A stretch of DNA of 64,000 nucleotides, taken from NCBI RefSeq assembly GCF_030345075.1, contig NZ_CP128361.1, positions 682,001 through 746,000 of the forward strand. The letters are read 5' to 3'. Positions 17,563-57,452 of this stretch are shown piece by piece. A program made the translations under genes and the position numbers. The stretch comes from Solwaraspora sp. WMMA2065 (GTDB taxonomy: Bacteria; Actinomycetota; Actinomycetes; Mycobacteriales; Micromonosporaceae). Under the pieces are notes generated by a model. It saw only the letters and a list, made by a program, of their open reading frames with translations. It made no database searches and was not told the DNA's origin. Each line of letters opens with the position of its first letter. Within the stretch, counting starts at the first letter, position 1.

Positions 17563-17566
17563 CTGG

Positions 17567-31813: not shown

Positions 31814-31820
31814 TCCCCCG

Positions 31821-33299: not shown

Positions 33300-33330
33300 T
33301 TGACACTCTGCGAAGAGATAAGTCAGACTT
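33300..33330 (+). promoter_or_regulatory. Promoter with GTCAGAC operator for the racemase-NMO operon
   Basis: A perfect -35 TTGACA (33300-33305), a 17-base spacer and TCAGACTTTTG at the -10 position. The perfect palindrome AAGTCAGACTT (33320-33330) covers the -10. The same TTGACA-17-TCAGACTTTTG layout occurs on the minus strand at 36635-36668. The GTCNGAC core matches the core of known FadR-family operators, suggesting control by the GntR protein at 45835-46617. Confidence 0.6.
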
Positions 33331-33346
33331 TTGCCGGGAGGTCGAC

Positions 33347-34171
33347 ATGAGCGAGCTGCGACGACTGGCGGTCATCAACTCCGACGCGAAACGGGCCCCG
33401 GTCCTGCCCGATCCACCTGGACTCGTCACCGAACTGCTCGACCCGCGCCTGCGGCGGTTCGCCCGTACCCCCTACGAACACCTGCTCACCGAGGTCGGCA
33501 CGGTCGACGTCGCCGAGGCGGCGATCGCCGCCGGCTGCGACGCCGTCTACATCGACACGTTCGGCGACTACGGCGTGGACCGGCTGCGGGCGGCCACCAC
33601 GGTGCCGATCGTCGGTGCCGGCGAGGCGACACTGGCCTGGGCCGCCGCACTCGGTCGGCGGTTCAGCATCGTCACCGTCTGGCCGGCCTCGATGGACTAC
33701 CTCTACGCGCAACGACTGGCCACCTGCCCCGGTGGCGAGCTCGCCGCCGGCGTGCACTACCTCTCCGACGAGACCGAGCTCGACCTGGTCGGCACCGACA
33801 GCGGGGTCAAGGCCCGGATGGGTCGGGGCGAGACCGACGTGGTCGCCGCCATCACCGAGGCGTGCCTGCGGGCCGCCGACGCCGATGGCACCGACCTGAT
33901 CTTCTTCGGCTGCACCTGCATGACCCCGGTCGTCGAGGAGGTCGGGCACCGGACCGGGATCGAGATCCTCGACCCGTCCGTCGTCGGCCTGCGGGCCGGG
34001 CACGCCGCCGCGCTCGCCGCCACCGGTGCGCCAGCGCGGACCGGCCGGCTCGGCGCGGTCACCGCCCTGGTAGACGCCTACCTGGGTGTGGACGCGACGG
34101 CCGGGGCCAGTTGTTCGGTCGACGCCGACGGCTGCGAGGTCTGCGCCGTCACCTCGGCCTCGGCGTCGTGA
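33347..34171 (+). CDS. Asp/Glu racemase-fold enzyme (hydantoin racemase/decarboxylase-like)
   Basis: A 274-residue member of the Asp/Glu/hydantoin racemase superfamily. The second active-site Cys motif is present (FFGCTCMTP, C189), but the first, normally CFGD, reads DTFGD with Thr at 71. Two-Cys racemases need both; one-Cys members of this fold include arylmalonate decarboxylase, which keeps the C-terminal Cys. The enzyme may therefore be a decarboxylase or isomerase, not a racemase. The ATG at 33347 follows GGGAGG. It overlaps the next gene by four bases. First gene of the catabolic cluster. Confidence 0.75.
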   Translation: MSELRRLAVINSDAKRAPVLPDPPGLVTELLDPRLRRFARTPYEHLLTEVGTVDVAEAAIAAGCDAVYIDTFGDYGVDRLRAATTVPIVGAGEATLAWAAALGRRFSIVTVWPASMDYLYAQRLATCPGGELAAGVHYLSDETELDLVGTDSGVKARMGRGETDVVAAITEACLRAADADGTDLIFFGCTCMTPVVEEVGHRTGIEILDPSVVGLRAGHAAALAATGAPARTGRLGAVTALVDAYLGVDATAGASCSVDADGCEVCAVTSASAS

Positions 34172-35319
34172 CGCCGCTGTGTCGGCGGGTCGGCATCGAC
34201 CTGCCGGTGATCGCTTTCAGCCACTGCCGGGACGTGGTGGCGGCGGTGAGCCGGGGTGGTGGACTCGGGGTGCTCGGCGCGGCCTCGATGTCCCCGGAGG
34301 ATCTCGAGCAGGATCTCGCCTGGCTCGACCGGGAGTGCGGGCGTACGCCGTACGGTGTCGATCTGCTCTTTCCCGCCACGACGGCCGGTGACGACCCGGC
34401 GGACCTGCTCGCCCAGATCCCGGCCGGGCATCAGGAGTTCGTCGCCGGGTTGCGGACCCGGCTGGGCATCCCGCAGCGGCGCAGCGCACCCGGGCGGACC
34501 CGGCTGGGTGGGATGCCGACCGAGATCGACCATCTGATGACCCACGCGAACGCGTACGCGTTGTGGGAGGTCGTCCAGGCCCACCCGGTCCGGCTGGTGG
34601 CCAGCGCCCTCGGGCCGCCGCCCGCCGCGGTGCGGGCCGTCGCGACCCGGCGCGACATGCTGGTCGCCGGCCTGGTCGGCGACCAGCGACACGTCCGTCA
34701 TCAGCTGGCCGCCGGCGTCGACGTGATCGTCGCCCAGGGCTACGAGGCGGCCGGACACACCGGCGAGACCACCACGATGGTGCTGGTGCCGCAGGTCGTG
34801 GCGGCCGCCGGTGAGGTGCCGGTGGTCGCCGCCGGCGGCATCGCCACCGGCCGTCAGGTGGTCGCCGCACTGGCACTGGGCGCGCAGGCGGTGTGGACCG
34901 GCTCCATCTGGCTCTCCACCGCCGAGAGCGATCTCGACCCGGTGGTCAAGGACAAGATCGTGACGGCGGCGGCGACCGACACCGCGAAGACCACGTCGTA
35001 CACCGGTAAGCCGACCCGACAGCTGACCACCGCGTGGACCCGGGCCTGGCAGCAGCCGCCGGCGCCGGCGCCGCTGGCCTCACCGGTGCAGCAGCTCCTC
35101 GCCCGTGACGCCGTCGTCAGCTCGTTCGAGCATCAGGTGACCCCGGTGATGGGTTCGGCGGCGGGCCAGGCGGTGGGCCTGGTCGACCGGGTGCGCTCCG
35201 TCGCCAGTGTGCTGGACGACCTGCGGACCGGCATGGCCGACGCGGTCGGCGACATCGCCGCCCTGGCCGATGACGACGCCAGTGACGTCGGTGACGCTGC
35301 CGCCCGCGACGGCGACTGA
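34168..35319 (+). CDS. Nitronate monooxygenase-like FMN enzyme
   Basis: A 383-residue TIM-barrel flavoprotein of the nitronate monooxygenase/2-nitropropane dioxygenase family. It starts at GTG 34168 (VTPLCRRVGIDLPVIAF), overlapping the previous stop by four bases. FMN-binding motifs are AQGYEAAGHTGE with the catalytic His, VVAAGGIATGRQV and AVWTGSIWL. Family members oxidise nitronates or act as NADH:quinone or enoyl reductases. A 40-residue polar tail (DDLRTGMADAVGD onward) ends inside a 24-base repeat array that includes its stop codon. The open frame continuing upstream to 33331 is a shadow of the racemase gene. Confidence 0.82.
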   Translation: MTPLCRRVGIDLPVIAFSHCRDVVAAVSRGGGLGVLGAASMSPEDLEQDLAWLDRECGRTPYGVDLLFPATTAGDDPADLLAQIPAGHQEFVAGLRTRLGIPQRRSAPGRTRLGGMPTEIDHLMTHANAYALWEVVQAHPVRLVASALGPPPAAVRAVATRRDMLVAGLVGDQRHVRHQLAAGVDVIVAQGYEAAGHTGETTTMVLVPQVVAAAGEVPVVAAGGIATGRQVVAALALGAQAVWTGSIWLSTAESDLDPVVKDKIVTAAATDTAKTTSYTGKPTRQLTTAWTRAWQQPPAPAPLASPVQQLLARDAVVSSFEHQVTPVMGSAAGQAVGLVDRVRSVASVLDDLRTGMADAVGDIAALADDDASDVGDAAARDGD

Positions 35320-35402
35320 CCCGGCGGGCGCGACGGCGACTGACCCGGCGGGCGCGACGGCGACTGACCCGGCGGGCGCGACGGCGACTGACCGGCGGCC
35401 GC
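35308..35402. repeat. 24-bp tandem repeats spanning the end of the NMO-like gene
   Basis: Three perfect copies and one partial copy of a 24-base unit (GACGGCGACTGACCCGGCGG + GCGC) start at 35308, 35332, 35356 and 35380. The first copy contains the TGA stop of the nitronate monooxygenase gene, so every unit repeats a stop. The array fills the gap between this gene and the convergent MFS gene. Confidence 0.9.
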
Positions 35403-35410
35403 GCGGCCCT

Positions 35411-36616
35411 TCACCGCCGACGGCGGCGGCGGGCGTCCAGGGCGGCGGCACCCAGCGTGTACGTGCTGAGCAGGGCGATGATCCCGGTCGCGACGGTCAG
35501 CACCGCTGACAGCGAGGTGCCGGTCAGCGCCGCGCCGCTGAGCAGTGCGCTGCCGCCGAGCGTGGTGAAGGCGGCCACCATCCACGCCGCGTAGATCTCC
35601 GCCCGCCGGTGCGTCGGTGCCGACTCGCCGATCAGTCGGGTGGCGCCGAGCAGCGTCAGCCCGCCCCCGAAGCCGACCAGCACCGCGCCGGTGACGGTGG
35701 CCGCCGGGTCCTGAAGATGCAGGGCCAGCGCGGTGGCCCCGGCGCCACCGGTGATCGCCACTACGCCCAGGCAGATCGACCGGGTCGAGTCGAGTCGGTT
35801 GAACAGCAACTGGGACAGCAGCGTCATACCGATCAGCAGGGTGAGCAGTCCGCCGGTGCCGCCGGCGGCGGTGACGCCGGCACCTTCGGCGAGGATCCGC
35901 GAGCCGAAGGTGCCGAACAGGGCCATGCACCCGTTGAGGGTCATCAGTGAGCAGGTGGCGACGCTGAACGGCAGCAGGATGGCGCGGGGGACCCGGACCG
36001 GCCGGACCAGCCGGATCCGTCGCGTCGTCCGACGGTCGGCCGGGGTGCGGACCAGCAGGATCAACGGCACCAGGGCGGCCACGCCGATGACGACGAACGG
36101 CAGCACCAGCGGGTAGCGGGTGTGGTCGGCCAGCAACCCGGACATCAGCGGTGCCAGGCCCATGCCGAGGGTGGTGCAGACCGAGTGGGTCAGGCTCCCC
36201 GCACGGGTGCCGCGAGGATGGAAGTCCAGCAGCGCGGCGGCGGTGGTGGCGCTGACCATCCCGGTCGCCATGCCCTGCACCACCCGCCCGGCGACCAGCG
36301 CCGGCAGCGACGCCGCGGTCGCGGTCACCAGGCACGCCGCCAGGACCAGCGCGACCCCGCCGAACATCACCGCCCGTCGACCGACCAGATCGGACAGACC
36401 GCCCAGTAGCGTCACGACCAGGATCACCCCGACGGGATAGCCGGCGAACGCGACGGCGACCTGCGCCGGCGTCAGCTGCCACCGGTCCGCGTAGATCGCG
36501 AACAGCGGGGTGGCGGCGAAACTGCCCAGCACGGCGACGAGGATCAGCGCGCCGGAGGCGGCAGCCATCCTCGCCGACGGACGTCGTGGGGTTTCCTCCA
36601 GCGCAGAGGTCGACAC
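35411..36616 (-). CDS. MFS transporter of the catabolic cluster
   Basis: A 401-residue major facilitator, about 12 helices, with the signature loop GLSDLVGRRAVMFGG and the motif-C-like GMGLAPLMSGLLADH. It most resembles the aromatic/drug exporter branch, so it may export a toxic intermediate or help import. The GTG at 36616 follows GGAAGG; TTG 36637 is a weaker alternative. It is the only minus-strand gene in the cluster, but its promoter carries the same TCAGACTTTTG element as the racemase promoter, which ties it to the regulon. Confidence 0.85.
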   Translation of the reverse strand: MSTSALEETPRRPSARMAAASGALILVAVLGSFAATPLFAIYADRWQLTPAQVAVAFAGYPVGVILVVTLLGGLSDLVGRRAVMFGGVALVLAACLVTATAASLPALVAGRVVQGMATGMVSATTAAALLDFHPRGTRAGSLTHSVCTTLGMGLAPLMSGLLADHTRYPLVLPFVVIGVAALVPLILLVRTPADRRTTRRIRLVRPVRVPRAILLPFSVATCSLMTLNGCMALFGTFGSRILAEGAGVTAAGGTGGLLTLLIGMTLLSQLLFNRLDSTRSICLGVVAITGGAGATALALHLQDPAATVTGAVLVGFGGGLTLLGATRLIGESAPTHRRAEIYAAWMVAAFTTLGGSALLSGAALTGTSLSAVLTVATGIIALLSTYTLGAAALDARRRRRR

Positions 36617-36639
36617 CGGCCACCGCCTTCCGGACAAAA

Positions 36640-36668
36640 GTCTGATGAATGAGGTCCGAGGCTGTCAA
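36640..36668 (-). promoter_or_regulatory. Promoter with ATCAGAC operator for the MFS gene
   Basis: On the minus strand, TTGACA (36663-36668) is followed after 17 bases by TCAGAC (36640-36645) and TTTTG, the same layout and nearly the same sequence as the racemase promoter at 33300-33332. The operator half-sites read ATCAGAC, one base off the perfect GTCAGAC. Confidence 0.55.
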
Positions 36669-36788
36669 GGTCTTGCCAGACGAGGGTTCCCACCTGCAGA
36701 GTGTGGCCTGGAACTGCTGCTTGCTCGGCGGGCGACGAGGTTACACGGCGGAAACAGTGTTGGCGTCAAGGACTGTTGTCCAGTGTCT

Positions 36789-36816
36789 TTACGCCTAACG
36801 TCAGACATATTAGGTT
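36789..36816 (+). promoter_or_regulatory. Promoter with GTCAGAC operator for the cupin-crotonase-ligase operon
   Basis: GTCAGAC at 36800-36806 lies between a possible -35 (TTACGC, 36789-36794) and -10 (TAGGTT, 36811-36816). The boxes are weak, but the operator is exact and the placement matches the promoter at 46714-46742, where the same word is also in the spacer. Confidence 0.5.
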
Positions 36817-36865
36817 GAGGCACTGGGCGTACTCGCCGCCAGTGGCGGGAGGTGGAGGTGCACCG

Positions 36866-37741
36866 ATGACAGTCACGATCGTCGACGCCGGGAACGTGCC
36901 GTGGGTCAACGGCGAGCAGGTCTACGACTCGATGGAGCCCGCCTTCCGCGACAACTTCGGCGGCGACCCCGACCAGGTGCGTGAACTGCTGTCCCGGTAC
37001 TGGATGCGGTCGCTGTGGCTGGACCGGGACACCACCCGCAGGATCGACCACATCCGGGCCGTCGCCGGCTACCGCGATCTCAGCGAGGCCTACCACGACA
37101 GCGTGGAGGAGGCGTACTTCCTCGACGGTGTGGTCGACCTCAGCGCCGAGGGACGGCTGATCGCCGGCGACTACTTCTGGCGTCCGCCGGGCTGGGTGCA
37201 CAAGGCCAGCAGCGACGAGGGCTTCACCGCGATCCTGTGCATGGAGGGCGCGGTCGCCACCGAGGGCAGTGACCGGGTGACCCGGGTGGTCTGCCCGGAC
37301 GACCAGGCCGGCGTGCGGGCCCGGGCAAACGGGGCAGCCGGGGCGGCCGACGACGTCGGCCCGCGCGGCTACCTGCGGCGGGTCGAGTCGCGGCAGCTGC
37401 CCTGGGCACCGTTGACCGCCCGGTGGTCGGGTGTCGACGCCGAGGTGGTCGGGCTGCCGTCGCCCGACACCGGACCGACACCGGTGGGCCGGCCGCTGAG
37501 CCGCAACGTGGTCACCGGGGCGTGCAGTGCGCTGGTCCGGCTGCCGGCCGGCTACACCGGTACGCCGCAGCCGGTCGACCGGGAACGGTTCCTCGTCACC
37601 ACCACGGGGACCCTGACGGTCGCGGGGCAGCCGCTGACCGCCTGCTCGCTGATACACCTGCCGGCCGGTGCCACGCCGCCGCCCATCGTCGCCGACACCG
37701 ACGTCGAGCTGTTCGTCAAGATCGGGGAGGCGACGGCGTGA
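36866..37741 (+). CDS. Cupin-fold protein with two cupin-like halves (function unknown)
   Basis: A 291-residue protein that reads as a bicupin. The first half has EEAYFLDGVVDLSAEGRLIAGDYFWRPPGWVH, a cupin motif 2 with PPG and His; the second half has VRLPAGYTG and ERFLVTTTGTLTV. The first cupin motif is degenerate, so metal binding is unsure. Similar ChrR/DUF4437-like proteins serve as sensors or small isomerases and dioxygenases. The ATG follows GGTGGAGGTG. First gene of a four-gene operon; overlaps the crotonase gene by four bases. Confidence 0.65.
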   Translation: MTVTIVDAGNVPWVNGEQVYDSMEPAFRDNFGGDPDQVRELLSRYWMRSLWLDRDTTRRIDHIRAVAGYRDLSEAYHDSVEEAYFLDGVVDLSAEGRLIAGDYFWRPPGWVHKASSDEGFTAILCMEGAVATEGSDRVTRVVCPDDQAGVRARANGAAGAADDVGPRGYLRRVESRQLPWAPLTARWSGVDAEVVGLPSPDTGPTPVGRPLSRNVVTGACSALVRLPAGYTGTPQPVDRERFLVTTTGTLTVAGQPLTACSLIHLPAGATPPPIVADTDVELFVKIGEATA

Positions 37742-38544
37742 CCGACGTACGGTTCGCCACCGACGACCAGGTGATGACGATCGTCCTCGACGGCCCGGAG
37801 ACGATGAACAGCCTGACGCCGGCGGCGATCGCCGGACTGGACGCCGCCCTGGCCGCCGCCGAGGTCGATCACACCCTGCGGGCCGTGGTGATCACCGGAG
37901 TGGGGGACCGGGCGTTCAGCGTCGGGATGGACATCGACTTCCTGGAATCCTGCTTCGACGACCCACAGCGGATCTTCCTGCCGTTCCTGCGCTCGTACCA
38001 TGCGGTACTGCGTCGCATCGAGCAGCTCGGCGTACCGGTCGTCGCCCGGGTCAACGGCCTCGCCCGCGCCGGTGGCTTCGAGCTGATCCTGGCCTGTGAT
38101 TTCGTGATCGCCGCCGACGAGGCGAAGGTCGGCGACATCCACCTGGAGTTCGGCATGCCGCCCGGTGCCGGCTCCAGCCAGCGTGCGCCGCGCAAGCTCG
38201 GCGACCAGCGGGCCAAGGCGCTGATGCTCACCCCGCTGTGGCTGCGCGGGCCGGAGCTGGTGCAGTGGGGTGTCGCGCTGGCCAGCGCACCCCGGGCGCA
38301 GCTGGACGACGAGGTCGGCAAGCTGCTGTCGTCGCTGCGCGGCCGGTCCCGCCCGGCGATGGCGATCACCAAGCGGCTGCTCAACTCGGTGCACACCATG
38401 ACGCTGGAGGAGGGCCTGCGCTACGAGCGCGAGATGTTCTCCCGGCTGCACGAGGAGGTGCCCGAGGTGGCCGAGGGCTACCGGGCGTTCGTCGACAAGC
38501 GCGAGCCGGTCTGGGGGGACGTCGATGTCCGCGGCCTTGCCTGA
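37738..38544 (+). CDS. Enoyl-CoA hydratase/isomerase family protein (crotonase)
   Basis: A 268-residue crotonase starting at GTG 37738. The oxyanion-hole regions DRAFSVGMDI and VNGLARAGGFELILACDF are present. Of the two hydratase Glu residues the first is kept (E115 in GGFE), while the second position reads His135 (GDIHLEFG). It may be an isomerase, a C-C hydrolase or a specialised hydratase. It acts after CoA activation by the ligase three genes downstream. It overlaps its neighbours on both sides. Confidence 0.85.
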   Translation: MTDVRFATDDQVMTIVLDGPETMNSLTPAAIAGLDAALAAAEVDHTLRAVVITGVGDRAFSVGMDIDFLESCFDDPQRIFLPFLRSYHAVLRRIEQLGVPVVARVNGLARAGGFELILACDFVIAADEAKVGDIHLEFGMPPGAGSSQRAPRKLGDQRAKALMLTPLWLRGPELVQWGVALASAPRAQLDDEVGKLLSSLRGRSRPAMAITKRLLNSVHTMTLEEGLRYEREMFSRLHEEVPEVAEGYRAFVDKREPVWGDVDVRGLA

Positions 38545-38974
38545 ACCGCCGGCCCCGCCCTCGCCGTCGGCGGATCCGCCGTCGGTCACCGTCACCGCGG
38601 AGCTGGTCGACACCCTGATCAGTCGGGGCGGCTACACCCATCCGCTGTTCAACCCGCCGGACCCGGGCAGTGGCGGTGGCCCGCCGCTGCCCGGCCAGGC
38701 GGTGCTGCTGCTGATGGGCGGCCTGGCCGAGCAGTCCGGCCAGCTCGACGACGCGATCGCGCTGCTGGAGCTGCGCCGGATGCGGTTCCATCAGCTGGTC
38801 CGGGCCGGCGCCACGCTGCGGGTGCGGATCGAGCGCCTCGCCAGCCGGAGCACCTCCAGCGGCAAGGTCGTGGCCGAGCTGCGGTGGACCGCCGTCGACG
38901 CCGACGGTGCGCCCGTGGCCGAGGCCGAAGCCGTCATGCTGATGAACGAATCGGGAAAGGCGGACCCAAGGTGA
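38525..38974 (+). CDS. MaoC/hotdog-like protein
   Basis: A 149-residue single-hotdog protein. SRGGYTHPLFNPP resembles the active-site start of MaoC-type hydratases (Asp replaced by Tyr-Thr-His-Pro context), and PPLPGQAVLLLMGGLAEQSG matches the hotdog helix. RRMRFHQLVRAGATLRVRIE fits the strand pattern. It could be a dehydratase or thioesterase on CoA esters. The ATG at 38525 lies 20 bases inside the crotonase gene and the stop overlaps the ligase start. Confidence 0.7.
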   Translation: MSAALPEPPAPPSPSADPPSVTVTAELVDTLISRGGYTHPLFNPPDPGSGGGPPLPGQAVLLLMGGLAEQSGQLDDAIALLELRRMRFHQLVRAGATLRVRIERLASRSTSSGKVVAELRWTAVDADGAPVAEAEAVMLMNESGKADPR

Positions 38975-40506
38975 CGGGTGTGCAGCTCAACATGGCGGCC
39001 GGGATCCGGGAGTTCGGCCGCGCCACGCCACGCCGGATCGCGGTGGTCGACGGCGACCGTGAGGTCACCTTCGGTGCCCTGCACCAGCGGTCGAGCCAGC
39101 TGGCCAGTGCGACCCTGGACCGGGGGTTGGCGCCCGGGGAGCGGATCGCGGTGCTGAGCAACAACCGGTACGAGTACTTCGAGATCTCCGCGGCGATGGC
39201 CAAGGCCGGTATCCCGACGGTGCCGCTGAACCCGCGCAACAACGTGACCGACAACGCGTACATCCTGGCCCACTCGGCCGTCCAGGGGATCATCGTCGCC
39301 GACGACCTCGCCGACCGGGTCGACGGGCTGCTCGACGGGCTACGGCTGGTGCTCAGCTTCGACGGCGGGGTGGGCGAGCACTACGGGACGTTCCTCGACG
39401 GTGGGCGGGCGGTCGACCCGCAGGTGCCGGTCGACGAGCTGGATCCGTTCTGTGTCACGTACACCTCCGGCACCACCGGGCGACCCAAGGGGGTGCTGCT
39501 CACCCACCGGGGCCGGGTGCTGACCGCGTTCGGGGTGGGGCTGGACTACGGGCTGGGCCCGAACCGCAGCACGATCGCGGTGGCGCCGATGTACCACGGC
39601 GCCGGCTTCGAGTTCGCGTACGCGGCACCGATGCTCGGCGGCTCCTGCACGGTACTGCCGAGCTGGGATCCGCAGCGGCTGCTCGACCTGATGGTGAGCA
39701 GCCGGGCGGAGACGGTCTTCCTGGTGCCCACCCACGCCCAGCACATCCGCCGGTTCTGTCCGGAGCCGGCGGCCCGCTACGACCTGTCGGCGCTGAAGAC
39801 CCTCTACTTCAACGCCGCCGCGTTGCCGGTCGCGCTCAAGGAGTGGGTGATCGAGGCGTTTCCCGGCGTGGAGGTGCACGAGCTCTACGGGTCGACGGAG
39901 TGCTCGATCGTGACCAACCTGCGGCCGGAGTTCGCGCTGGACCGGGCGGGCAGCGTGGGTCATCCGTGGTTCTGGAACGAGGTACGGCTGGTCGACGAGG
40001 ACGGGGCGCAGGTCGGCCCGGGTGAGCCCGGCGAGCTGTACGCGCGTTCGCCGCTGCTGCTGACCGGCTATCTCAACGACGAGGAGGCGACCCGGGCCGG
40101 GTACGACGCCGACGGCTTCTTCTCGGTCGGCGACATCGCGGTCCGTGACGAGGAAGGCTTCATCTCGATCGTCGACCGGAAGAAGGACATGATCATCGCG
40201 GGTGGGGTGAACATCTTCCCCCGCGAGATCGAGGAGGTCATCGCGCGGCACGGGCCGGTGGACGAGGTCGCGGTGGTCGGCGTTCCGGACGAGGTGTACG
40301 GCGAGCGGATCGCCGCGTTCGTGGTGAGCCGTGCCGGCCAGCAGATCGACGTCTCCACGCTGGATGGCTACGTACGGGAGCACGTGGCGCGGTACAAGGT
40401 TCCCCGGGAATGGCACGTGGTCGACCAGTTGCCGCGCAACCCGAGCGGGAAGATCCTCAAGCGGACGATCCGCGACGAGTACGTCAGTCAACCTGGTAAG
40501 GGTTGA
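38971..40506 (+). CDS. AMP-forming acyl-CoA ligase
   Basis: A 511-residue class I adenylating enzyme. The P-loop TYTSGTTGRPKGVLLTH is canonical, followed by YGSTECS, GDIAVRDEEGFISIVDRKKDMIIAGG and the C-terminal NPSGKILKRTIR with the catalytic Lys. It belongs to the fatty/aromatic acyl-CoA ligase branch and is the likely entry enzyme that charges the substrate with CoA. GTG 38971 overlaps the previous stop by four bases. Last gene of its operon; a 250-base gap follows. Confidence 0.93.
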   Translation: MTGVQLNMAAGIREFGRATPRRIAVVDGDREVTFGALHQRSSQLASATLDRGLAPGERIAVLSNNRYEYFEISAAMAKAGIPTVPLNPRNNVTDNAYILAHSAVQGIIVADDLADRVDGLLDGLRLVLSFDGGVGEHYGTFLDGGRAVDPQVPVDELDPFCVTYTSGTTGRPKGVLLTHRGRVLTAFGVGLDYGLGPNRSTIAVAPMYHGAGFEFAYAAPMLGGSCTVLPSWDPQRLLDLMVSSRAETVFLVPTHAQHIRRFCPEPAARYDLSALKTLYFNAAALPVALKEWVIEAFPGVEVHELYGSTECSIVTNLRPEFALDRAGSVGHPWFWNEVRLVDEDGAQVGPGEPGELYARSPLLLTGYLNDEEATRAGYDADGFFSVGDIAVRDEEGFISIVDRKKDMIIAGGVNIFPREIEEVIARHGPVDEVAVVGVPDEVYGERIAAFVVSRAGQQIDVSTLDGYVREHVARYKVPREWHVVDQLPRNPSGKILKRTIRDEYVSQPGKG

Positions 40507-40529
40507 TTGTAGGCGCCTTCTCTTCCAAT

Positions 40530-40671
40530 GTCTGACCAATGTGGGTGGGACGGTTTTCGTCGCTGTACCCGTATTGAAACGCGGCGCTGCCCGCTTGTTG
40601 CGCTGCTGCCAGCGGTGGAGATTGTGTCAGTACGGTAAAACTCTGACTTTTAGTGGACTGGCTGGTCAGAG
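40530..40671 (+). promoter_or_regulatory. Promoter region with three GTCWGAC-like sites before the ABC importer operon
   Basis: In the 250-base gap there are GTCTGAC at 40530-40536, a near-palindrome AAAACTCTGACTTTT at 40637-40651, and GTCAGAG at 40665-40671. CTGACT (40643-40648) and TCAGAG (40666-40671) are 17 bases apart, echoing the TTGACA-17-TCAGAC promoters of this cluster. The DNA here is AT-rich. Which site is used is not clear. Confidence 0.5.
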
Positions 40672-40756
40672 GCCGTTAGTGTCATCCGCACCAAGGTCCC
40701 GATGCGGCTCGCGGCTCACCTGTCGACCGCACGGACTTCGTGATCAGGAGGCCATC

Positions 40757-41791
40757 GTGTCCCACTTCAATAGTTCCGGTGTCGCCCTCTCCCGTCGCTC
40801 CGTGCTCGCCGGTCTCGGCGGCGCGTTCATGGGCGGCGTACTGCTGACCGCCTGCGGCAGCGACGACTCCGACTCCGGTTCCACCGGCGCCGCCGACGGC
40901 GACCTCACCACGATCCGACTCGCCGGACTACCGGCCTCGGCGCTCGCCGCGTTCAAGCTCGCCATGTCCGACGGTGCCTTCGAGGCCGCCGGCCTCGACA
41001 TCCAGTACGAGGAGTACGCCGAGGCGGCCGCCGTCTACACCGCGTACCGGGCCAACGAGGTCGACGGTGGCCTCGGCGGCATCCCGTCCACCGCCAACCT
41101 GGTCGCCACCGGCGTCGACCGCAAGGTCGTCTGCGCGCTGCAGCGCACCACCAACGGCATCCTGGTGCGCGCCGACAGCGACATCCAGTCCCTCGGTGAC
41201 CTGCGTGGGCGCAAGCTTGGTCTGTTCGGCAGTGCGATCGGTTCCTCCACCAACCAGTTCTTCGCACTCTGCCGCGAATACCACGGCTTCAACCCCACCA
41301 CCGACTGCGAGGTGCAGTACGGCGCCCCGAACCTGATGGCCGAACTGCTCGGCCAGGGCGACGTGGACATGGCACTGGTGATCGACCCGGCCGGTGCGGA
41401 CCGGGTGGTCAGCGGCGAGTACCGGTCGCTGGGCGACCTCGGCGTGCTGCTGGAGGAGGCCACCGGGCTGCAGGCGTTCACCGCCGGCTGGGACTTCGCC
41501 ACCGACTTCATCGACGCCAACCAGGAGGCCGTGCAGGCCTTCGTCGACGTGAACCTCGAGTACCAGACCCGGTTCAACGGCGACCAGTCGCTGTGGGACA
41601 GCGCCCTGCGGGAGTTGTACGAGATCGACGACCAGGCAGTGCTCGACGTCATCTGGGAGAACCAGCGCGGCCGGCTCGTCGAGCAGTGGGGCGAGCAGGA
41701 GAAGCAGCAGGCCGCCGAGCTGCTCACCTTCCTGAGCGACAACGGTGAGCCGGAGTTCCTGCCCGAGGTGCCCGACGGGCTGTTCGTCTGA
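40757..41791 (+). CDS. ABC transporter substrate-binding lipoprotein (nitrate/sulfonate/taurine type)
   Basis: A 344-residue periplasmic-type binding protein of the SsuA/TauA/NMT1-like fold. The N terminus has a twin-Arg-like SRRSVLAGLGG followed by the lipobox LLTACGS, so it is an exported lipoprotein, probably by Tat. IRLAGLPASALAAFKLAMSDG and LGDLRGRKLGLFGSAIGSSTNQF match the family. Ligands range from sulfonates to aromatic acids and pyrimidine precursors. GTG 40757 follows AGGAGG. It leads the seven-gene importer operon and probably delivers the pathway substrate. Confidence 0.88.
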   Translation: MSHFNSSGVALSRRSVLAGLGGAFMGGVLLTACGSDDSDSGSTGAADGDLTTIRLAGLPASALAAFKLAMSDGAFEAAGLDIQYEEYAEAAAVYTAYRANEVDGGLGGIPSTANLVATGVDRKVVCALQRTTNGILVRADSDIQSLGDLRGRKLGLFGSAIGSSTNQFFALCREYHGFNPTTDCEVQYGAPNLMAELLGQGDVDMALVIDPAGADRVVSGEYRSLGDLGVLLEEATGLQAFTAGWDFATDFIDANQEAVQAFVDVNLEYQTRFNGDQSLWDSALRELYEIDDQAVLDVIWENQRGRLVEQWGEQEKQQAAELLTFLSDNGEPEFLPEVPDGLFV

Positions 41792-41826
41792 CGTCGACCA
41801 CCCCCCGCCTCGCGAGGAGACGCACG

Positions 41827-42690
41827 ATGACCCTGTCCGAAACCACCCAGCCGGCGCAAGCGACGGCCGGAGCGGCGGATCGTGGCGCGGCGGGTGGCCG
41901 CGGTGGCGGTGGGCGCGGTGGTGCCCACCGCTTCCTGCGGCACGGCGTCTCGCTGCGGATCGCCTCCGTGTTCATGCTGATCGTCATCTGGTGGCTGGGT
42001 TCACTGGCCGTCGGTGAGCGGATCCTGCCGACCCCGTGGACCACCGCGTCGGCGTTGGTGACCAGCGTGCAGGAGACGGTCTTCTGGACCGACCTGCAGG
42101 TCACCATGGTCCGGATCCTGATCGGCTTCGCCGCCTCCATGGTGCTCGGTGTGCTGGTCGGTCTGGTGATGGGGCTGTCCCGGATCGCCGAAGGGCTGCT
42201 GGACATCTGGATCGCCGTCGGCCAGACCATCCCCAGCCTCTGCTGGGTGATCGTCGCGTTCATCATGTTCGGCCTCAACGACACCGCCACCGTCGTGGCG
42301 ATCACCCTGACGTCCTTTCCGATCATCGCGATCAACATGTGGTCCGGGGTCAAGGCGATCGACCCCCGGCTCGGCCAGATGGCCCGCACTCTCGGTGCGT
42401 CGCGGGGCCTGCGTACCCGGGAGGTGACCCTGCCCCAGGTGCTGCCGGCGGTGATGGCCTCGGCCCGGTTCGGGTTCGGCATCGTGTGGAAGGTCGTCGT
42501 CCTCGCCGAGCTGCTCGGCCGCACCGACGGCATCGGCTACCGGCTCAACTACTGGTTCCAGCTCTTCCGGATGGAACAGGTCTTCGCACTCACGCTGTTC
42601 TTCTCGATCCTGATGGTGGTGCTGGAGTTGGCGGTGTTCAAACCGATCGAGGCCAAGCTGTTCCGCTGGCGTCCGGAGGGGGCCCGATGA
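41827..42690 (+). CDS. ABC transporter permease (SsuC/TauC type)
   Basis: A 287-residue permease with about six helices after a Gly-rich cytoplasmic N terminus. The ATPase-coupling loop is MARTLGASRGLRTREVTLPQVLPAVMAS, with the EAA-like motif. The ATG at 41827 follows GAGGAGACG. It overlaps the ATPase gene by four bases. Together with the lipoprotein upstream it forms an importer typical for organic anions. Confidence 0.92.
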   Translation: MTLSETTQPAQATAGAADRGAAGGRGGGGRGGAHRFLRHGVSLRIASVFMLIVIWWLGSLAVGERILPTPWTTASALVTSVQETVFWTDLQVTMVRILIGFAASMVLGVLVGLVMGLSRIAEGLLDIWIAVGQTIPSLCWVIVAFIMFGLNDTATVVAITLTSFPIIAINMWSGVKAIDPRLGQMARTLGASRGLRTREVTLPQVLPAVMASARFGFGIVWKVVVLAELLGRTDGIGYRLNYWFQLFRMEQVFALTLFFSILMVVLELAVFKPIEAKLFRWRPEGAR

Positions 42691-43508
42691 GCGCCGACGC
42701 CCGGATCGTCATATCCGACCTGGTCAAGGGCTTCCACACCCGCAACGGCTTCATCACGGTCATCGAGCGGATGAACCTGGAGATTGCCGACGGCGAGTTC
42801 GTCGCGCTGGTCGGACCGTCCGGTTGTGGCAAGTCGACCGTGCTGAACATGCTCAGCGGGCTGGACACCGACTTCACCGGCACAGCCGAGATCCGCAGCG
42901 GGGCACCGGGGGTGCAGTTCAGCTACGTGTTCCAGGAGCCGCGGCTGCTGCCCTGGAAGACAGTCCGGCAGAACGTCGAGTTCGCCCTGAAGGCGACCGG
43001 GGTGGACCGGGCGCAGTGGTCCGACCGGGTGATGCCGGTGCTGCGTCGGGTCGGACTGGCCGGCTTCGAGAACCACTATCCGCACCAGATCTCCGGCGGC
43101 ATGCAGCAGCGCACCGCGCTAGCCCGGGCGTTCGTGCTGGACGCGCCGGTGATGCTGATGGACGAGCCGTTCAGCGGGCTGGACGAGTTCACCGCCCGCA
43201 GCCTGCGTCAGCTGCTGCTGGAACTGCGTACCCAGACGGCGGGCAAGGCGTTCGTCTTCGTCACCCACAACGTGTTCGAGGCCGCGGTGCTCTCCGACCG
43301 GGTGGTGCTGATGTCCAACCGGCCGTCGACCGTACGCCGGGTGGTCGACGTCGAGGTGCCGTTGCCGCGCAGCTACGACGATCCCCGGCTGTTCGACGTC
43401 AGCCGCGAACTCACCCACGAGATCATCTCGACGATGACCGCCACCGACGACGGTGGTCTCGTCGTCGACGAGGCACACACCCGACTCGCCGGGCCGGGTG
43501 CGTCGTGA
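42687..43508 (+). CDS. ABC transporter ATP-binding protein (SsuB/TauB type)
   Basis: A 273-residue ATPase. Walker A GPSGCGKST, Q loop YVFQEPRLLPWKT, signature ISGGMQQRTALARAF, Walker B VMLMDEPFSGLD and switch FVTHNVFEA are all present. The PRLLPW segment is typical of the nitrate/sulfonate/taurine family. It energises the preceding permease. The ATG at 42687 overlaps the permease stop, and its own stop overlaps the next gene. Confidence 0.95.
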   Translation: MSADARIVISDLVKGFHTRNGFITVIERMNLEIADGEFVALVGPSGCGKSTVLNMLSGLDTDFTGTAEIRSGAPGVQFSYVFQEPRLLPWKTVRQNVEFALKATGVDRAQWSDRVMPVLRRVGLAGFENHYPHQISGGMQQRTALARAFVLDAPVMLMDEPFSGLDEFTARSLRQLLLELRTQTAGKAFVFVTHNVFEAAVLSDRVVLMSNRPSTVRRVVDVEVPLPRSYDDPRLFDVSRELTHEIISTMTATDDGGLVVDEAHTRLAGPGAS

Positions 43509-44044
43509 CCGGCGCGCTGCGACCCCGGCTGCCGACCGCGTTCGCGGCCGGGGCGGTGCTGCTCACCCCGGCCCGGACGCTGACCGACGGAGACTTCGCC
43601 GCGATCGTCAACGTCTCCTGGGAGAACGGCCCGCTGCACACCGACGCCGAGTACATGCGCGGCACCGGGTTCGGCCGGCCGATCCTGGGCGGGCCGTGCC
43701 TGATCGCGCTCGCCGCCGGGCTCACCTCGACCACCATGTACGCCGCCTGGTACGCCGCCGGCCTGGACTGCCACGCCGCGCTCGGCATCGACGAGATCCG
43801 TTACACCGGGCCGGTGTCCGCCGGTGACACGCTACGCGTGCGTATCGAGGTGACGCGGTTGGAGCCGACCCCGGGCGGGCGGATGTACGTGGGCGTGGTG
43901 CACGACGACGTACGCAACCAGCGGGACGAGACCGTCCTGCGGATGACGCGTTCCTACCTGCTGCGCCCACTGCCCGAGCCCGAGCCGGAGTCCGAGTCCG
44001 ATTCTGCGCCGGGCGTCGGCGCGGCAAACCCGGAGCAGCCGTGA
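43505..44044 (+). CDS. MaoC-like hydratase/dehydratase
   Basis: A 179-residue hotdog-fold protein. VNVSWENGPLHTDAEYMRGTGFGRPILGGPCLIALAAGLTST fits the MaoC hydratase motif with the catalytic Asn/His region shifted to NGPLHTDAEY. GPVSAGDTLRVRIEV is the second family motif. It would hydrate an enoyl-CoA. The acidic C-terminal tail (PEPEPESESDS) is unusual. GTG 43505 overlaps the ATPase stop, and its stop overlaps the crotonase start. Confidence 0.8.
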   Translation: MTGALRPRLPTAFAAGAVLLTPARTLTDGDFAAIVNVSWENGPLHTDAEYMRGTGFGRPILGGPCLIALAAGLTSTTMYAAWYAAGLDCHAALGIDEIRYTGPVSAGDTLRVRIEVTRLEPTPGGRMYVGVVHDDVRNQRDETVLRMTRSYLLRPLPEPEPESESDSAPGVGAANPEQP

Positions 44045-44811
44045 AACCGCCGTCGACCAGCACCCTCACGCTGACCCGGCACGGGCGGGTGCTGCTGGTC
44101 ACCCTGGACCGGCCGCACCGGCTCAACGCCTACGACCGGGTGATGGTCGACGAACTGCGGCGTACCTGGCGCTGGTTCGGTGCCGACGACGGCCTGCACG
44201 TCGCCGTGCTGACCGGAGCCGGCGAGCGCGGCTTCTGCACCGGCTTCGACGTCGACGACACCCTCGACGCCGGGGTCACCAGTCCGTCGCTGGACCACGC
44301 CGGCCGGGTCGCGTTGACCGCCCGCGACCTGGGCGTCTACAAGCCGGTGGTGACGGCGGTCAACGGGCACTGCTGCGCCGGTGGTTGGCACTTCGTCAAC
44401 GACGCCGACGTGGTGCTCTGCACCGAGACGGCGACCTTCTTCGACACCCACCACGACGTGGGCCTGGCCAACCCGGTCGAGGCGGTCGGCGCGCTGGGGC
44501 GGCTGCCGCTCGGCGAGCTGATGCGGATGGTGCTGACCGGGCGCGCGTACCGCATCGACGCCCGCCGGGCGCTGGAGCTCGGTCTGGTGACCGAGGTGAC
44601 CGCTCCCGCCGATCTGGTGGACCGGGCGTTGGCCATCGCCACCGAGATCGCCCAGCATCCGCTCGACGTGCTGACCACCACGGTGGAGACGGTGTGGACG
44701 GCGGTGCAGGCGCAGCGGTCCGCGGCCGAGGCGTTCGGGTTGGCGATGCTGGCCCGCTCCGACGCCTCGACCGCCCGGCGCGGCGAGTCCATGCGGGAAT
44801 TCCGGCACTGA
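44041..44811 (+). CDS. Crotonase-fold protein lacking both hydratase glutamates
   Basis: A 256-residue enoyl-CoA hydratase/isomerase family member. VAVLTGAGERGFCTGFDVDD and VNGHCCAGGWHFVNDADVVLC give the oxyanion hole, but the two Glu positions read His117 (GGWH) and His138 (FDTHHDVGL). It therefore should not work as a standard hydratase; other crotonases with altered residues act as hydrolases, isomerases or decarboxylases. GTG 44041 overlaps the MaoC stop. Eight bases separate it from the LLM gene. Confidence 0.82.
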   Translation: MKPPSTSTLTLTRHGRVLLVTLDRPHRLNAYDRVMVDELRRTWRWFGADDGLHVAVLTGAGERGFCTGFDVDDTLDAGVTSPSLDHAGRVALTARDLGVYKPVVTAVNGHCCAGGWHFVNDADVVLCTETATFFDTHHDVGLANPVEAVGALGRLPLGELMRMVLTGRAYRIDARRALELGLVTEVTAPADLVDRALAIATEIAQHPLDVLTTTVETVWTAVQAQRSAAEAFGLAMLARSDASTARRGESMREFRH

Positions 44812-44819
44812 GGGGCACG

Positions 44820-45746
44820 ATGGACTACGGGATCTTCAGCCACATCGAACGGCTCGACGACCTCGAGCGTGACCTGCGGGCCGCCGACGCCGACGGGATC
44901 GCCAGCTACTGGCTGACGCAGGGCTTCGGGCACGACACGCTGACCGTGATCGGCGCGTACGGTCGGCAGCTGAGCCGGCTGCGGATCGGCACCGCCGTGG
45001 TGCCGGTCTACCCGCGTCACCCGATGGCCCTGGCCCAGCAGGCGCTCACCACCAACATGCTGCTCGGCGGCCGGTTGGTGCTCGGCGTCGGGCCGTCGCA
45101 CCCGCAGGTGGTCGAGCCCTGCTGGGGGATGTCCTACGAGCGGCCGGCGCGCTACATGCGCGAGTACCTGACCGCGCTGACCGGCGCGCTGACCCAGCGG
45201 GTCCGCTACACCGGTGAGGTGATCACCGCCCGGGGTGACCTGACGATCAGCGGCGACCCGCCGGCACCGGCGGTGATGGTCTCCGCGCTGGGCCCGAAGA
45301 TGCTGGAGCTGACCGGTGCCCTTGCCGCCGGCACGATCACCTGGATGGTCGGCCCGCGCACGCTGACCGAGCTGACCGTACCGGCGATCACCGCCGCCGC
45401 GCGGACGGCTGGTCGGCCGGCCCCCGAGATCGTGGTGACCGCCGCGGTCTGCGTCACCGACGACCCGACCCGGGCCCGCGCGGCGATCGACCCGGTGCTC
45501 GGCTGGTACGACGACAAGCCGTCCTACCGGGCGATGCTGGACCGCGAAGGTTTACAGCGGGCCAACCAGATGGCGATCGTCGGTGACGCAGACGAGGTGC
45601 GGGCCGAGATCGACCGCTATGCGCGGGCCGGGGCGAGCACCTTCGCGGCCCAGTTCTACGGCACCCCGGAGGAACGGGCGGCAACGCGGGCGCTGATCGG
45701 CGAGCTGGCCGGGACCACCCGTTCGACCGGGGATGGCCGACAGTGA
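44820..45746 (+). CDS. LLM-class flavin-dependent oxidoreductase
   Basis: A 308-residue luciferase-like monooxygenase or F420-dependent reductase. MDYGIFSHIERLDDL, IGTAVVPVYPRHPMALAQQALT and GRLVLGVGPSHPQVVEPCWGM are LLM landmarks; AIVGDADEVRAEIDRYARAGAST is the common C-terminal segment. It could use F420 or FMN. The ATG at 44820 follows GAGGGGC. Last enzyme gene of the importer operon, 88 bases before the GntR gene. Confidence 0.88.
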   Translation: MDYGIFSHIERLDDLERDLRAADADGIASYWLTQGFGHDTLTVIGAYGRQLSRLRIGTAVVPVYPRHPMALAQQALTTNMLLGGRLVLGVGPSHPQVVEPCWGMSYERPARYMREYLTALTGALTQRVRYTGEVITARGDLTISGDPPAPAVMVSALGPKMLELTGALAAGTITWMVGPRTLTELTVPAITAAARTAGRPAPEIVVTAAVCVTDDPTRARAAIDPVLGWYDDKPSYRAMLDREGLQRANQMAIVGDADEVRAEIDRYARAGASTFAAQFYGTPEERAATRALIGELAGTTRSTGDGRQ

Positions 45747-45834
45747 CGCGGATCGGCGTCCGCCATGCCCTACCGTGGTGGTTCGCGACGAATCCGCACT
45801 CCGGTGTGCGGGTCCGAAAGGATGCGGAGCCGAA

Positions 45835-46617
45835 GTGACCATGGCCAAGGACGTGACGCACGAGCCGGCGAGCCGGTCGGAAAAGGCGATCCCGGGGCAC
45901 CGCCGGGATCCTGGGGTGCTCGGGGTGACCCGGGTCCAACCCGCGTACCAGCAGGTCGCCGACCAGTTGCGGGAGCGGATCCTGGACGGGTCGCTGACCG
46001 CGGGGGACCGGTTGCCGACCGAGGTCGAGCTGTCGGAGATCTTCGGGGTCAGCCGTAGCACGGTACGGGAGGCGTTGCGGGTGCTGGCGTCCAAGGATCT
46101 GATCCGCACCACCCGGGGAACCACCGGCGGCACCTTCGTGGCCCGGGTGCAGTTCGACCAGGTGAGCGAGTATCTGGAGATGAGCTTCGGGCTGATGTCC
46201 GGGGCCCGGGACATCACGTTGGACAACCTGCTGGAGGCGCGGGAGTGCCTGGAGGTGCCGGCGGCCGGGCTGGCCGCGCTGCGCCGCGCCGACGAACATC
46301 TGGTGCTGATGCGTCAAGCGGTGGAGCGGGAGAAGTCGACCCGGGCCCGCGGCCGCAAGTTCCGTGAGCACCGGACCTTCCACGGGGTGCTGGTCGAGGC
46401 GACCGGTAACCAGCTGCTCGGGGTGATGGCCGAGCCGGTCTTCCGGGTGCTGCAGGCGCGGACCGCCGACCGCGACATGCCCGCGGAGTACTGGAGCCAG
46501 ATCGACGCCGAACACACCGAGATCTGCGGCTATGTCGAGGCCGGTGATGTCGAGGGTGCGCAGGCGGCGATGCGGGCCCACCTGGGTACCGTCCGCCGGG
46601 CGTACGACGGACACTGA
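45835..46617 (+). CDS. GntR regulator, FadR subfamily (probable cluster regulator)
   Basis: A 260-residue DNA-binding protein. The winged helix is QQVADQLRERILDGSLTAGDRLPTEVELSEIFGVSRSTVREALRVLASKDLI, split here only for reading; the C-terminal FCD domain has DNLLEARECLEVPAAGLAA, EHRTFHGVLVEATGN and DAEHTEICGYVEAGD, giving the Asp/His ligands typical of metal- and acid-binding FCD domains. The start is GTG 45835 after GGAG, or ATG 45841. FadR-subfamily proteins bind GTNNNAC-type dyads, which fits the GTCWGAC sites in this cluster, and their ligand is usually the pathway acid or CoA ester. Confidence 0.92.
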   Translation: MTMAKDVTHEPASRSEKAIPGHRRDPGVLGVTRVQPAYQQVADQLRERILDGSLTAGDRLPTEVELSEIFGVSRSTVREALRVLASKDLIRTTRGTTGGTFVARVQFDQVSEYLEMSFGLMSGARDITLDNLLEARECLEVPAAGLAALRRADEHLVLMRQAVEREKSTRARGRKFREHRTFHGVLVEATGNQLLGVMAEPVFRVLQARTADRDMPAEYWSQIDAEHTEICGYVEAGDVEGAQAAMRAHLGTVRRAYDGH

Positions 46618-46655
46618 AGACAAACTCACAACTAAATACCTGATGTTTCGGAACT

Positions 46656-46692
46656 ACGCCCTGCTGTCGTGCTGAGCAGGGCGTTTTCGTTG
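46656..46692 (+). terminator. Intrinsic terminator after the GntR gene
   Basis: ACGCCCTGCT (46656-46665) pairs perfectly with AGCAGGGCGT (46675-46684), followed by TTTTCGTT. This classic stem plus T-run ends the importer-GntR operon and isolates the large operon downstream. Confidence 0.9.
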
Positions 46693-46713
46693 GCCTGGTT
46701 GAGTTGCTGGCCC

Positions 46714-46742
46714 TTGACTCGTAAAAGTCAGACAAATAAGCT
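46714..46742 (+). promoter_or_regulatory. Promoter with GTCAGAC operator for the 14-gene operon
   Basis: TTGACT (46714-46719) and TAAGCT (46737-46742) are 17 bases apart, with GTCAGAC at 46727-46733 in the spacer (context AAAAGTCAGACAAAT). This is the best-placed operator in the cluster. It lies about 30 bases past the GntR terminator and 36 before the next start. Confidence 0.6.
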
Positions 46743-46777
46743 GGTGGCAGTTCACGGGCGGGCGAGAGGATCGGTCG

Positions 46778-47311
46778 ATGTCGGTACGGCAGGGGTGGAC
46801 CGGACGCTTCTTTGAAGACTTTGGCGTCGGCGACGTCTATCAGCATCCCCTCGGGCGCACCGTGTCCGAGGCGGACAACACCTGGTTCACCCTGTTGACG
46901 ATGAACACCAGCCAGATGCACTTCAACACCGAGTACGCCGCCCGGTCGGAGTTCGAGCGGCCACTGGTCGTCTCCACCCTGACCCTGGCCATCGCGGTCG
47001 GGCAGAGCGTCACCGACCTCACCCAGAACGCCTTTGCCAACCTCGGCTGGAACGAGATCGTCCTGCCGCACCCGGTGTTCGCCGGCGACACCCTCTACAG
47101 TGAATCGTTGGTACTCGACAAGCGTGAATCCGGGTCCCGCCCGTACGCCGGGATCGTGACGGTCCGCACCCGCACCCTCAACCAGGACGGCGCACAGGTC
47201 TGCGCCTTCAAACGCACCTTCTACGTCTACAAGCGTGGCGCCAAGCAGGTCGAGGGAATCTTCCCGGCCGCCGCCACCCCGCTGTCGCTGGAGAACGAGG
47301 CGACCGGATGA
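46778..47311 (+). CDS. MaoC-like acyl-CoA hydratase (mesaconyl-CoA hydratase-like)
   Basis: A 177-residue hotdog protein. GRFFEDFGVGDVYQHPLGRTVSEADN and NTSQMHFNTEYAARSEFERPLV resemble mesaconyl/itaconyl-CoA hydratases and other MaoC enzymes; ENEIVLPHPVFAGDTLYSES-like wording is seen as NEIVLPHPVFAGDTLY. It would hydrate a branched or dicarboxylic enoyl-CoA. The ATG at 46778 is first in a 14-gene operon in which the genes overlap or lie within 26 bases. Its stop overlaps the LLM start. Confidence 0.85.
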   Translation: MSVRQGWTGRFFEDFGVGDVYQHPLGRTVSEADNTWFTLLTMNTSQMHFNTEYAARSEFERPLVVSTLTLAIAVGQSVTDLTQNAFANLGWNEIVLPHPVFAGDTLYSESLVLDKRESGSRPYAGIVTVRTRTLNQDGAQVCAFKRTFYVYKRGAKQVEGIFPAAATPLSLENEATG

Positions 47312-49589: not shown

Positions 49590-49599
49590 CCGGCCCGCC

Positions 49600-50958: not shown

Positions 50959-50972
50959 CCAGGGAGACGCCC

Positions 50973-52250: not shown

Positions 52251-52753
52251 TGGGTCTGCTCACCGACGAGCTGCGGGCGCTGCTCGGCACCCGCAAGGTC
52301 TACACCGCGCCGGAGGCGCTCGGCGCCGCCGCCGGGCGCTACTTCGCGATGGCGGTCGGCGACGACAATCCGATCTACCGCGACGGCGACTACGCCCGGG
52401 CGCACGGCCTGCCCGGGGTGACCGCCCCACCGACGCTGATCTGCGAGACCGGCCAGTACACCGGGCTGCCGATGGCCTCCGACGGCTACGCCGGCCACTC
52501 CTGGCACCTGGACGTGCCCGGCACCCGGCAGGTACGCGGCGGCAACACGTACACCTTCCACCGGCGGGTCCGTCCCGACGACGTGATCACCGCGACCTGG
52601 GAGATCCACGACCTGACCGAGAAACGCACCCGGGGCGGCGGCGACATGCTGGTCGTCGGCTCCCGGGCCACCTACACCAACCAGCACGGCGAACTGCTGG
52701 CGGTCAACGAGGAAACCATCATCCTGGTCGCGATGGGCGGTGATCCGACGTGA
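52250..52753 (+). CDS. FAS1-like/MaoC N-terminal-type dehydratase subunit
   Basis: A 167-residue hotdog protein of the N-terminal MaoC (FAS1-like dehydratase) type, which pairs with a second hotdog subunit. AAGRYFAMAVGDDNPIYRDGDYARAHGLPGVTAPPTL has the Asp/Asn and Ala-Pro-Pro features. The next gene encodes the likely partner, and the two overlap by four bases, so they probably form a heterodimeric hydratase like HadAB. The ATG shares one base with the previous stop. Confidence 0.85.
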   Translation: MGLLTDELRALLGTRKVYTAPEALGAAAGRYFAMAVGDDNPIYRDGDYARAHGLPGVTAPPTLICETGQYTGLPMASDGYAGHSWHLDVPGTRQVRGGNTYTFHRRVRPDDVITATWEIHDLTEKRTRGGGDMLVVGSRATYTNQHGELLAVNEETIILVAMGGDPT

Positions 52754-54817: not shown

Positions 54818-54843
54818 GCCCGCCGACCACCCAGGAGACCCCG

Positions 54844-57448: not shown

Positions 57449-57452
57449 CCGG

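Follow-up and report, generated by a model that had tools for sequence, protein, structure and literature searches.

A predicted operator shared by the five transcription units of a Solwaraspora catabolic cluster, and the FCD-type GntR regulator that may read it

Introduction

What keeps a large catabolic cluster, spread over several transcription units, under common control, and which protein exerts it? This question is raised by a stretch of 64,000 nucleotides from Solwaraspora sp. WMMA2065 (contig NZ_CP128361.1, positions 682,001 to 746,000; hereafter the window), in which 28 reading frames make up a catabolic cluster that carries a GntR regulator gene in its midst. The genome is a single contig of 6.74 Mb, and the five units of the cluster were drawn from gene order and gaps, not from transcripts. 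An earlier note had placed the word GTCWGAC, or close variants of it, before each unit and had proposed that the GntR protein controls all five. Our comparison of relatives' loci, matrices and site placement supports this proposal at the level of sequence. Very probably, the local FCD-type GntR protein binds as a dimer to dyads before all five units and represses the cluster until an intermediate releases it. The occurrence of the words in the cluster promoters was borne out, and the size given to the operator was not: instead of seven bases, the predicted operator spans 15 bp, a dyad with AT-rich flanks that reads about AAAnGTCnGACnTTT.

Comparisons with published systems in this text draw on parts of the cited papers. 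Operators of the FadR subfamily are AT-rich palindromes in which GT and AC mostly stand three bases apart (PMC4494728), in agreement with the GT...AC core that had been assumed for them. Carboxylic acids are among the small ligands that regulators with an FCD domain take up (PMC4494728). Experiments have located sites with the GTCWGAC core for three regulators of this kind or family, AlkR, AnsR and LhgR (PMC12042122, PMC9145765, PMC8206213).

Results

Related regulator genes were sought in 250 genomes of the family (92 matching at 1e-40), in 394 genomes of the class (seven matching at 1e-65, including the genome studied here) and in further genome contigs (four loci). Fourteen distant loci, whose regulators are 50-85% identical to ours, were compared: seven from family genomes outside the genus, picked as best matches or for cluster genes beside GntR, six from other class genomes, and one from Homoserinimonas (L040). 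Two genomes that match better than G002 (G037 and G106) were placed among the controls, no cluster gene having been found beside their GntR genes; G002 was kept for its three such genes. Eighteen short loci from the 92 matching family genomes likewise served as controls, the others staying outside the comparison.

The region after GntR contains GTCnGAC with symmetrical A/T arms in 12 of the 14 distant loci (for example AAATGTCAGACATTT and AAACGTCTGACGTTT). When all palindromes with three-base arms (64 arms, spacers of 0-12) were counted in this region, GTC-N1-GAC was the commonest, with the same 12 loci, against seven for the runner-up and at most eight in 15 shuffled sets. The exact dyad is the GntR-proximal copy in G176 and G526, where the promoter copy reads GTCTGAG, and in G488 the gene that follows GntR differs from the MaoC gene. 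Orthologous clusters that keep the regulator and lose the sites, the outcome that the earlier note regarded as fatal to its proposal, were looked for here, and the prevailing pattern is retention.

We built a symmetrical 15-bp matrix from the 12 relatives' sites, none of which comes from the window's genus; they represent nine genera, and three pairs share a genus, so the sites are not fully independent. Applied to the window, this matrix placed its top seven matches in promoter regions of the cluster, with all five units covered, and the eighth-best place scored 5.8. Six places scored at least 15, every one of them in a cluster promoter, whereas 100 shuffled windows yielded eight such matches altogether, never more than one per shuffle, with a best score of 19.3. 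At a threshold of 10, shuffled windows averaged 0.67 matches, which bears on the weakest of the seven, at 46634. A matrix made from five sites of other families ranked the same seven places on top. Over 20 relatives' loci (316,427 bases), 32 places scored at least 15, comprising the 12 training sites and 20 new ones, versus three over 12 shuffled sets altogether; one of the new sites falls within a match to a window gene, and the others were partly checked against annotation. In half of the 12 relatives (6/12), the stretch that separates GntR from the next gene has a second site of at least 15 along with the first.

The seven words listed earlier are all present at their coordinates. Four are exact copies (33322, 36800, 40530 and 46727) and three carry one mismatch: 36640 (GTCTGAT on the plus strand), 40641 (CTCTGAC) and 40665 (GTCAGAG). 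As a heptamer, GTCWGAC is not enriched in the window (7 exact copies, 11.9 expected) and occurs 443 times genome-wide compared to 394 for a reversed control, so we discarded heptamer counting as uninformative. One chance copy outside promoters, at 17566, had been recognized; two more exact copies, at 9156 and 41786, had been missed. The earlier view that placement rather than count is the evidence proved apt, in that the heptamer is not significant and the AT-flanked dyad, with its placement, is. The 40665 word was rejected as a consensus operator on its matrix score, though it lies inside a possible promoter spacer. The features are collected in Table 1.

Table 1. Cluster, units, regulator and predicted operators (window coordinates)
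Feature	Position	Strand	Evidence or remark
Catabolic cluster	33347..59412	.	28 frames, five inferred units
Predicted operator, racemase-NMO unit	33318..33332	+	matrix 25.0
Unit racemase-NMO	start 33347	+	
MFS gene, divergent	start 36637 or 36616	-	
Predicted operator, divergent MFS gene, weaker	36636..36650	-	matrix 16.4; touches TTG at 36637
Predicted operator, cupin-to-AMP-ligase unit	36796..36810	+	matrix 23.8
Unit cupin-ECH-(frame 38525)-AMP ligase	start 36866	+	
Second predicted site upstream of SBP-to-GntR unit	40526..40540	+	matrix 15.8
Predicted operator upstream of SBP-to-GntR unit	40637..40651	+	matrix 20.5
Listed word GTCAGAG	40661..40675	+	matrix -20.0; unsupported as consensus operator
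Unit SBP (substrate-binding protein)-permease-ATPase-MaoC-ECH-LLM-GntR	start 40757	+	
GntR regulator, FadR subfamily (GntR helix-turn-helix and FCD)	45835..46617	+	Pfam, AlphaFold model
Possible weak site just 3' of GntR	46634..46648	+	matrix 10.1; alone not significant
Hairpin followed by TTTT, 3' of GntR	46656..46684	+	RNAfold -19.0 kcal/mol (40 bases from 46656)
Predicted operator, MaoC-to-acyl-CoA-dehydrogenase unit	46723..46737	+	matrix 25.1, best in window; kept in G060 and G079
Unit MaoC through second acyl-CoA dehydrogenase	start 46778	+	

Two genomes of the same genus, G060 and G079, encode regulators 100 and 99% identical to that of the window, and their diverged promoter regions keep short islands that bear the word (GATAAGTCAGACTTTTG, TAACGTCAGACATATTAG, CAAAAGTCTGATGAAT and CTCGTAAAAGTCAGACAAATAA). 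The first of these is the predicted racemase-NMO operator, retained in both genomes within diverged flanks; the second and third are the conserved predicted operators of the cupin unit and the MFS gene. The 40526 site retains AATGTCTGACCA in G079 despite differing neighbouring bases. The leader from about 40620 to the gene for the substrate-binding protein (SBP) is conserved throughout, and there the alignment favours neither 40637 nor 40665. Within the genus the regulator itself is patchy: four of the six other genomes examined (G034, G093, G105 and G114) have no match at 1e-40.

The regulator protein scores well above the Pfam cut-offs for both of its domains (PF00392, GntR, 74.6 bits against 27; PF07729, FCD, 76.8 bits against 24.3). 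Its AlphaFold model shows a winged helix-turn-helix and seven further helices (mean predicted local distance difference test score 84.1; residues 1-31 unreliable), and a C-terminal domain built wholly of helices, six or seven in number, belongs to the definition of the FadR subfamily (PMC4494728). Palindromes with AT-rich arms and with GT and AC separated by two or three bases are the subfamily's operator form; the predicted operators share it, as GT-CnG-AC with A/T arms, in 12 of the 14 relatives and at the regulator's own units. The nearest solved sequences are 6az6 and 2di3; among the Foldseek matches shown, all of them GntR-type proteins, the TM-scores are modest (best 0.57 by query length). 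With E. coli-type FadR equivalogs the protein stays below the cut-off (28.2 bits against 189; 26.9 against 249.2). The earlier label of a FadR-type regulator therefore fits as far as the FCD-bearing FadR subfamily is concerned, and FadR itself is ruled out by the first of these scores. Metal-binding FCD proteins use an aspartate and three histidines as ligands. Three histidines (His183, His227 and His249) are invariant in all 19 regulators compared, and the position usually held by the aspartate is His179 in the window protein, glutamine in G075 and asparagine in G002. Among the matches listed from the open-licence literature we found no description of this regulator, and it looks, together with its regulon, undescribed.

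As for the cluster, the Pfam scan covered 27 of the 28 frames (all except 38525-38974). The longest frame of the MFS gene opens with TTG at 36637, and the GTG at 36616 may be the true start. The hairpin behind GntR is the probable end of the SBP-to-GntR unit; a scan for consensus terminators found none. Immediately upstream of the cluster lies a gene for an ECF-type sigma factor (31758-33182; Sigma70 regions 2 and 4, DUF6596, TPR), which adjoins the cluster in G060 and G079 too. An IS66-family transposase gene (59536-61023, minus strand) lies directly 3' of the cluster.

Discussion

From the computed sites, their conservation, the promoter fit and the protein family, we infer a simple mode of control. 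A GntR dimer would occupy the 15-bp dyad before all five units, that of its own gene included, and the bound protein would hinder RNA polymerase. A small carboxylate or coenzyme A (CoA) ester of the pathway, taken up by the FCD domain, could then free the protein from the DNA, upon which uptake and breakdown genes would come on together. The smallest relative cluster, in G526, has kept a core of MaoC hydratase, CoA transferase, acyl-CoA dehydrogenase and CitE-like lyase; since this core resembles an itaconate/methylsuccinate module, our guess is that the inducer may be a C5 dicarboxylate with a branched skeleton, or the CoA ester of such an acid. Autoregulation appears likely, as the GntR gene stands last in an operator-controlled unit that the hairpin follows, and as G002 and Homoserinimonas have predicted sites upstream of GntR (scores 17.0 and 16.3, respectively), while in G064 an ECH1-AMP ligase-GntR run is preceded by one that scores 23.8.

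How the dyads lie relative to promoters bears on the direction of control. A -35/-10 pair with a spacer of 17-18 bases could be drawn over a dyad-like word at all five units of the window and in 11 of the 14 regions from relatives, in a search that required such an overlap and shows compatibility only; in relatives, GTCnGAC falls mostly inside TTGAC-N17/18-TAnnnT. The words had been described as lying inside or next to promoter boxes. This holds for the MaoC and cupin units, where the dyad lies in the spacer (TTGACT-N17-TAAGCT and TTTACG-N17-TAGGTT), and, as an overlap with a poor -10 box (CAGACT), it would hold for the racemase and MFS units. At the SBP unit, the spacer of TGGACT-N17-TAGTGT holds only the unsupported 40665 word, and the supported sites lie upstream of the boxes. 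It is this upstream position of two sites that speaks for the best of the alternatives, namely that GntR acts on the dyads as an activator, or as an activator at some units and a repressor at others. We consider this improbable, since a dimer bound between -35 and -10 would stand in the way of the polymerase, and this is where the dyad is placed at the MaoC and cupin units as well as in most relatives.

Alternatively, the dyad could belong to another regulator, either a second FCD GntR protein encoded elsewhere or the adjacent ECF-type sigma factor, with the local GntR serving some other role. Nearly the same recognition helix is found in other GntR genes, and the sigma factor gene keeps its place beside the cluster in the window and in G060 and G079. 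Against this, the site accompanies this GntR gene in a set of 14 loci whose neighbours differ, has the form of a FadR-subfamily operator, and lies in a spacer or on a -10 box rather than being shaped as a -35/-10 pair. The sigma factor gene went undetected in the more distant loci, and we did not adopt it as the dyad's reader. Taken together, this second alternative seems to us a little less probable still. That AT-rich promoter DNA should contain these words merely by chance can hardly be credited: the low heptamer count in the window would suit it, but independent matrices and conservation across species contradict it, and in each of four promoter regions none of 2000 composition-matched shuffles reached the observed maximum.

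Besides the built-in overlap of the promoter search, several observations weigh against repression of all five units by the local GntR protein. Two of the 14 loci have no site after GntR: in G341 (L071; regulator 54% identical) no site of at least 11 occurs in the 19.9 kb read, and in Homoserinimonas the GntR-proximal place is empty, with weaker sites nearby. In the window, one of the seven words (40665) falls outside the consensus, and the stretch directly 5' of the GntR gene holds no site (best matrix score there -14.5), so autoregulation would need read-through of the SBP unit. The loci of 22 more distant GntR genes (143,949 bases) contain no place of at least 15, which speaks for the proposal; on the other side, 18 of these stretches span only about 3.7 kb, and the control genes have a nearly identical recognition helix. 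A strict pattern, which misses the window's own sites, was found 15 times in 26 whole genomes versus six times for the reversed control. Eleven of these places are in the 16 genomes that bear the regulator (eight in cluster loci), and four are in the ten genomes without a regulator match. Within the genome studied here, WAANGTCWGACNTTW with at most one mismatch gave three matches, all in the cluster, again in favour of the proposal. Allowing two mismatches gave 13 places, compared to 24 for the reversed control; five are in the cluster (36636 and 40526 being missed), and the other eight score 3.9 to 15.4, three of them, including the best, without a codon-biased frame over them. This best place (907187-907201 of the genome, L074) looks intergenic and could be a chance match or an additional target.

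Several characterized regulators offer points of comparison. AlkR is an FCD GntR repressor of a catabolic gene, a role like that predicted for the window protein; its footprinted site ATTGTCAGACAAT has the same core and AT flanks and overlaps -10 regions, and acyl-CoA esters influence its binding, which we list as a likeness; unlike the window protein, it is described with a single target promoter, in alkane metabolism, and with six C-terminal helices rather than the seven of our model (PMC12042122). AnsR of Corynebacterium glutamicum is an actinobacterial repressor of the FadR subfamily encoded within the operon it controls, and its site ACCTGTCTGACAGCT has the same core. It differs in that one site, downstream of the transcription start, acts as a roadblock in an asparagine operon and, as given in the part of the paper cited, lacks AT-rich arms (PMC9145765). 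The L-2-hydroxyglutarate regulator LhgR, also of the GntR family, has footprinted sites TTGTCTGACAA and TAGTCTGACAA at its target and own promoters, and serves a different pathway (PMC8206213). With E. coli FadR our protein shares the GntR helix-turn-helix and the operator form of the subfamily, GT and AC three bases apart (PMC4494728); as its equivalog score indicates, it is not FadR, having an FCD domain instead.

The pathway under this control can be described at the level of protein families. In Pseudomonas and Cupriavidus, an itaconate/methylsuccinate cluster combines a CoA transferase, a hydratase, a citramalyl-CoA lyase, an acyl-CoA dehydrogenase and an MmgE/PrpD protein (PMC12290011, in part). 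The same Pfam families occur together in the window's last unit, a likeness at family level only, and the window cluster goes beyond this set with LLM oxidoreductases, a thiolase/OB pair, extra MaoC proteins, an importer, an AMP ligase and others. Both enzymes scanned against NCBIfam equivalogs missed the cut-offs (CoA transferase 261 against 700 bits; dehydrogenase at best 342.8 against 640). Tentatively, and with slightly more doubt than belief, we suggest that FCD GntR proteins of an undescribed group, shared by the window's family and other families of actinomycetes, serve as a dedicated switch for one uncharacterised pathway. This pathway would supply a branched C5-dicarboxyl-CoA module made up of CoA transferase, hydratase, CitE-like lyase and acyl-CoA dehydrogenase, and the operator of the group would have come to stand beside at least three unrelated importer types. 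Three relatives, G095, G627 and G573, have sites next to an SBP_bac_5 protein, the first two of them with a divergent acyl-CoA dehydrogenase as well; in G526, sites adjoin a Peripla_BP_6 protein and a divergent amidase/MFS pair. The importer in the window is NMT1-type and unrelated to either. If the suggestion is true, the operator could locate the pathway's uptake systems and its substrate.

Our results provide a specific predicted operator for an uncharacterised regulator and join 28 genes in one predicted regulon. Since relatives have this operator next to differing importers and enzymes, it can serve to assign genes to the pathway, and an inducer screen with the regulator could lead to the substrate. 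The understanding of GntR control is left unchanged: the mode is an ordinary one, and the regulon is new for a known kind of regulator and site core.

Within the last unit, a FAS1-like dehydratase, a MaoC protein, a thiolase and OB/zinc-ribbon proteins follow each other in a row (52250-54817, Pfam), which is reminiscent of the hydratase-aldolase set of steroid side-chain breakdown and offers a lead to the substrate. The gene at 50973-52250, kept in many relatives' clusters, encodes 425 residues with an unusual layout of three L-PSP (RidA-like) stretches. The clusters of Virgisporangium and G075 (L039:8981-13525 and L047:5251-7712) look partly deleted: several of their enzymes are matched in pieces only, whereas the operator remains, as do GntR, the acyl-CoA dehydrogenase and the first MaoC protein.

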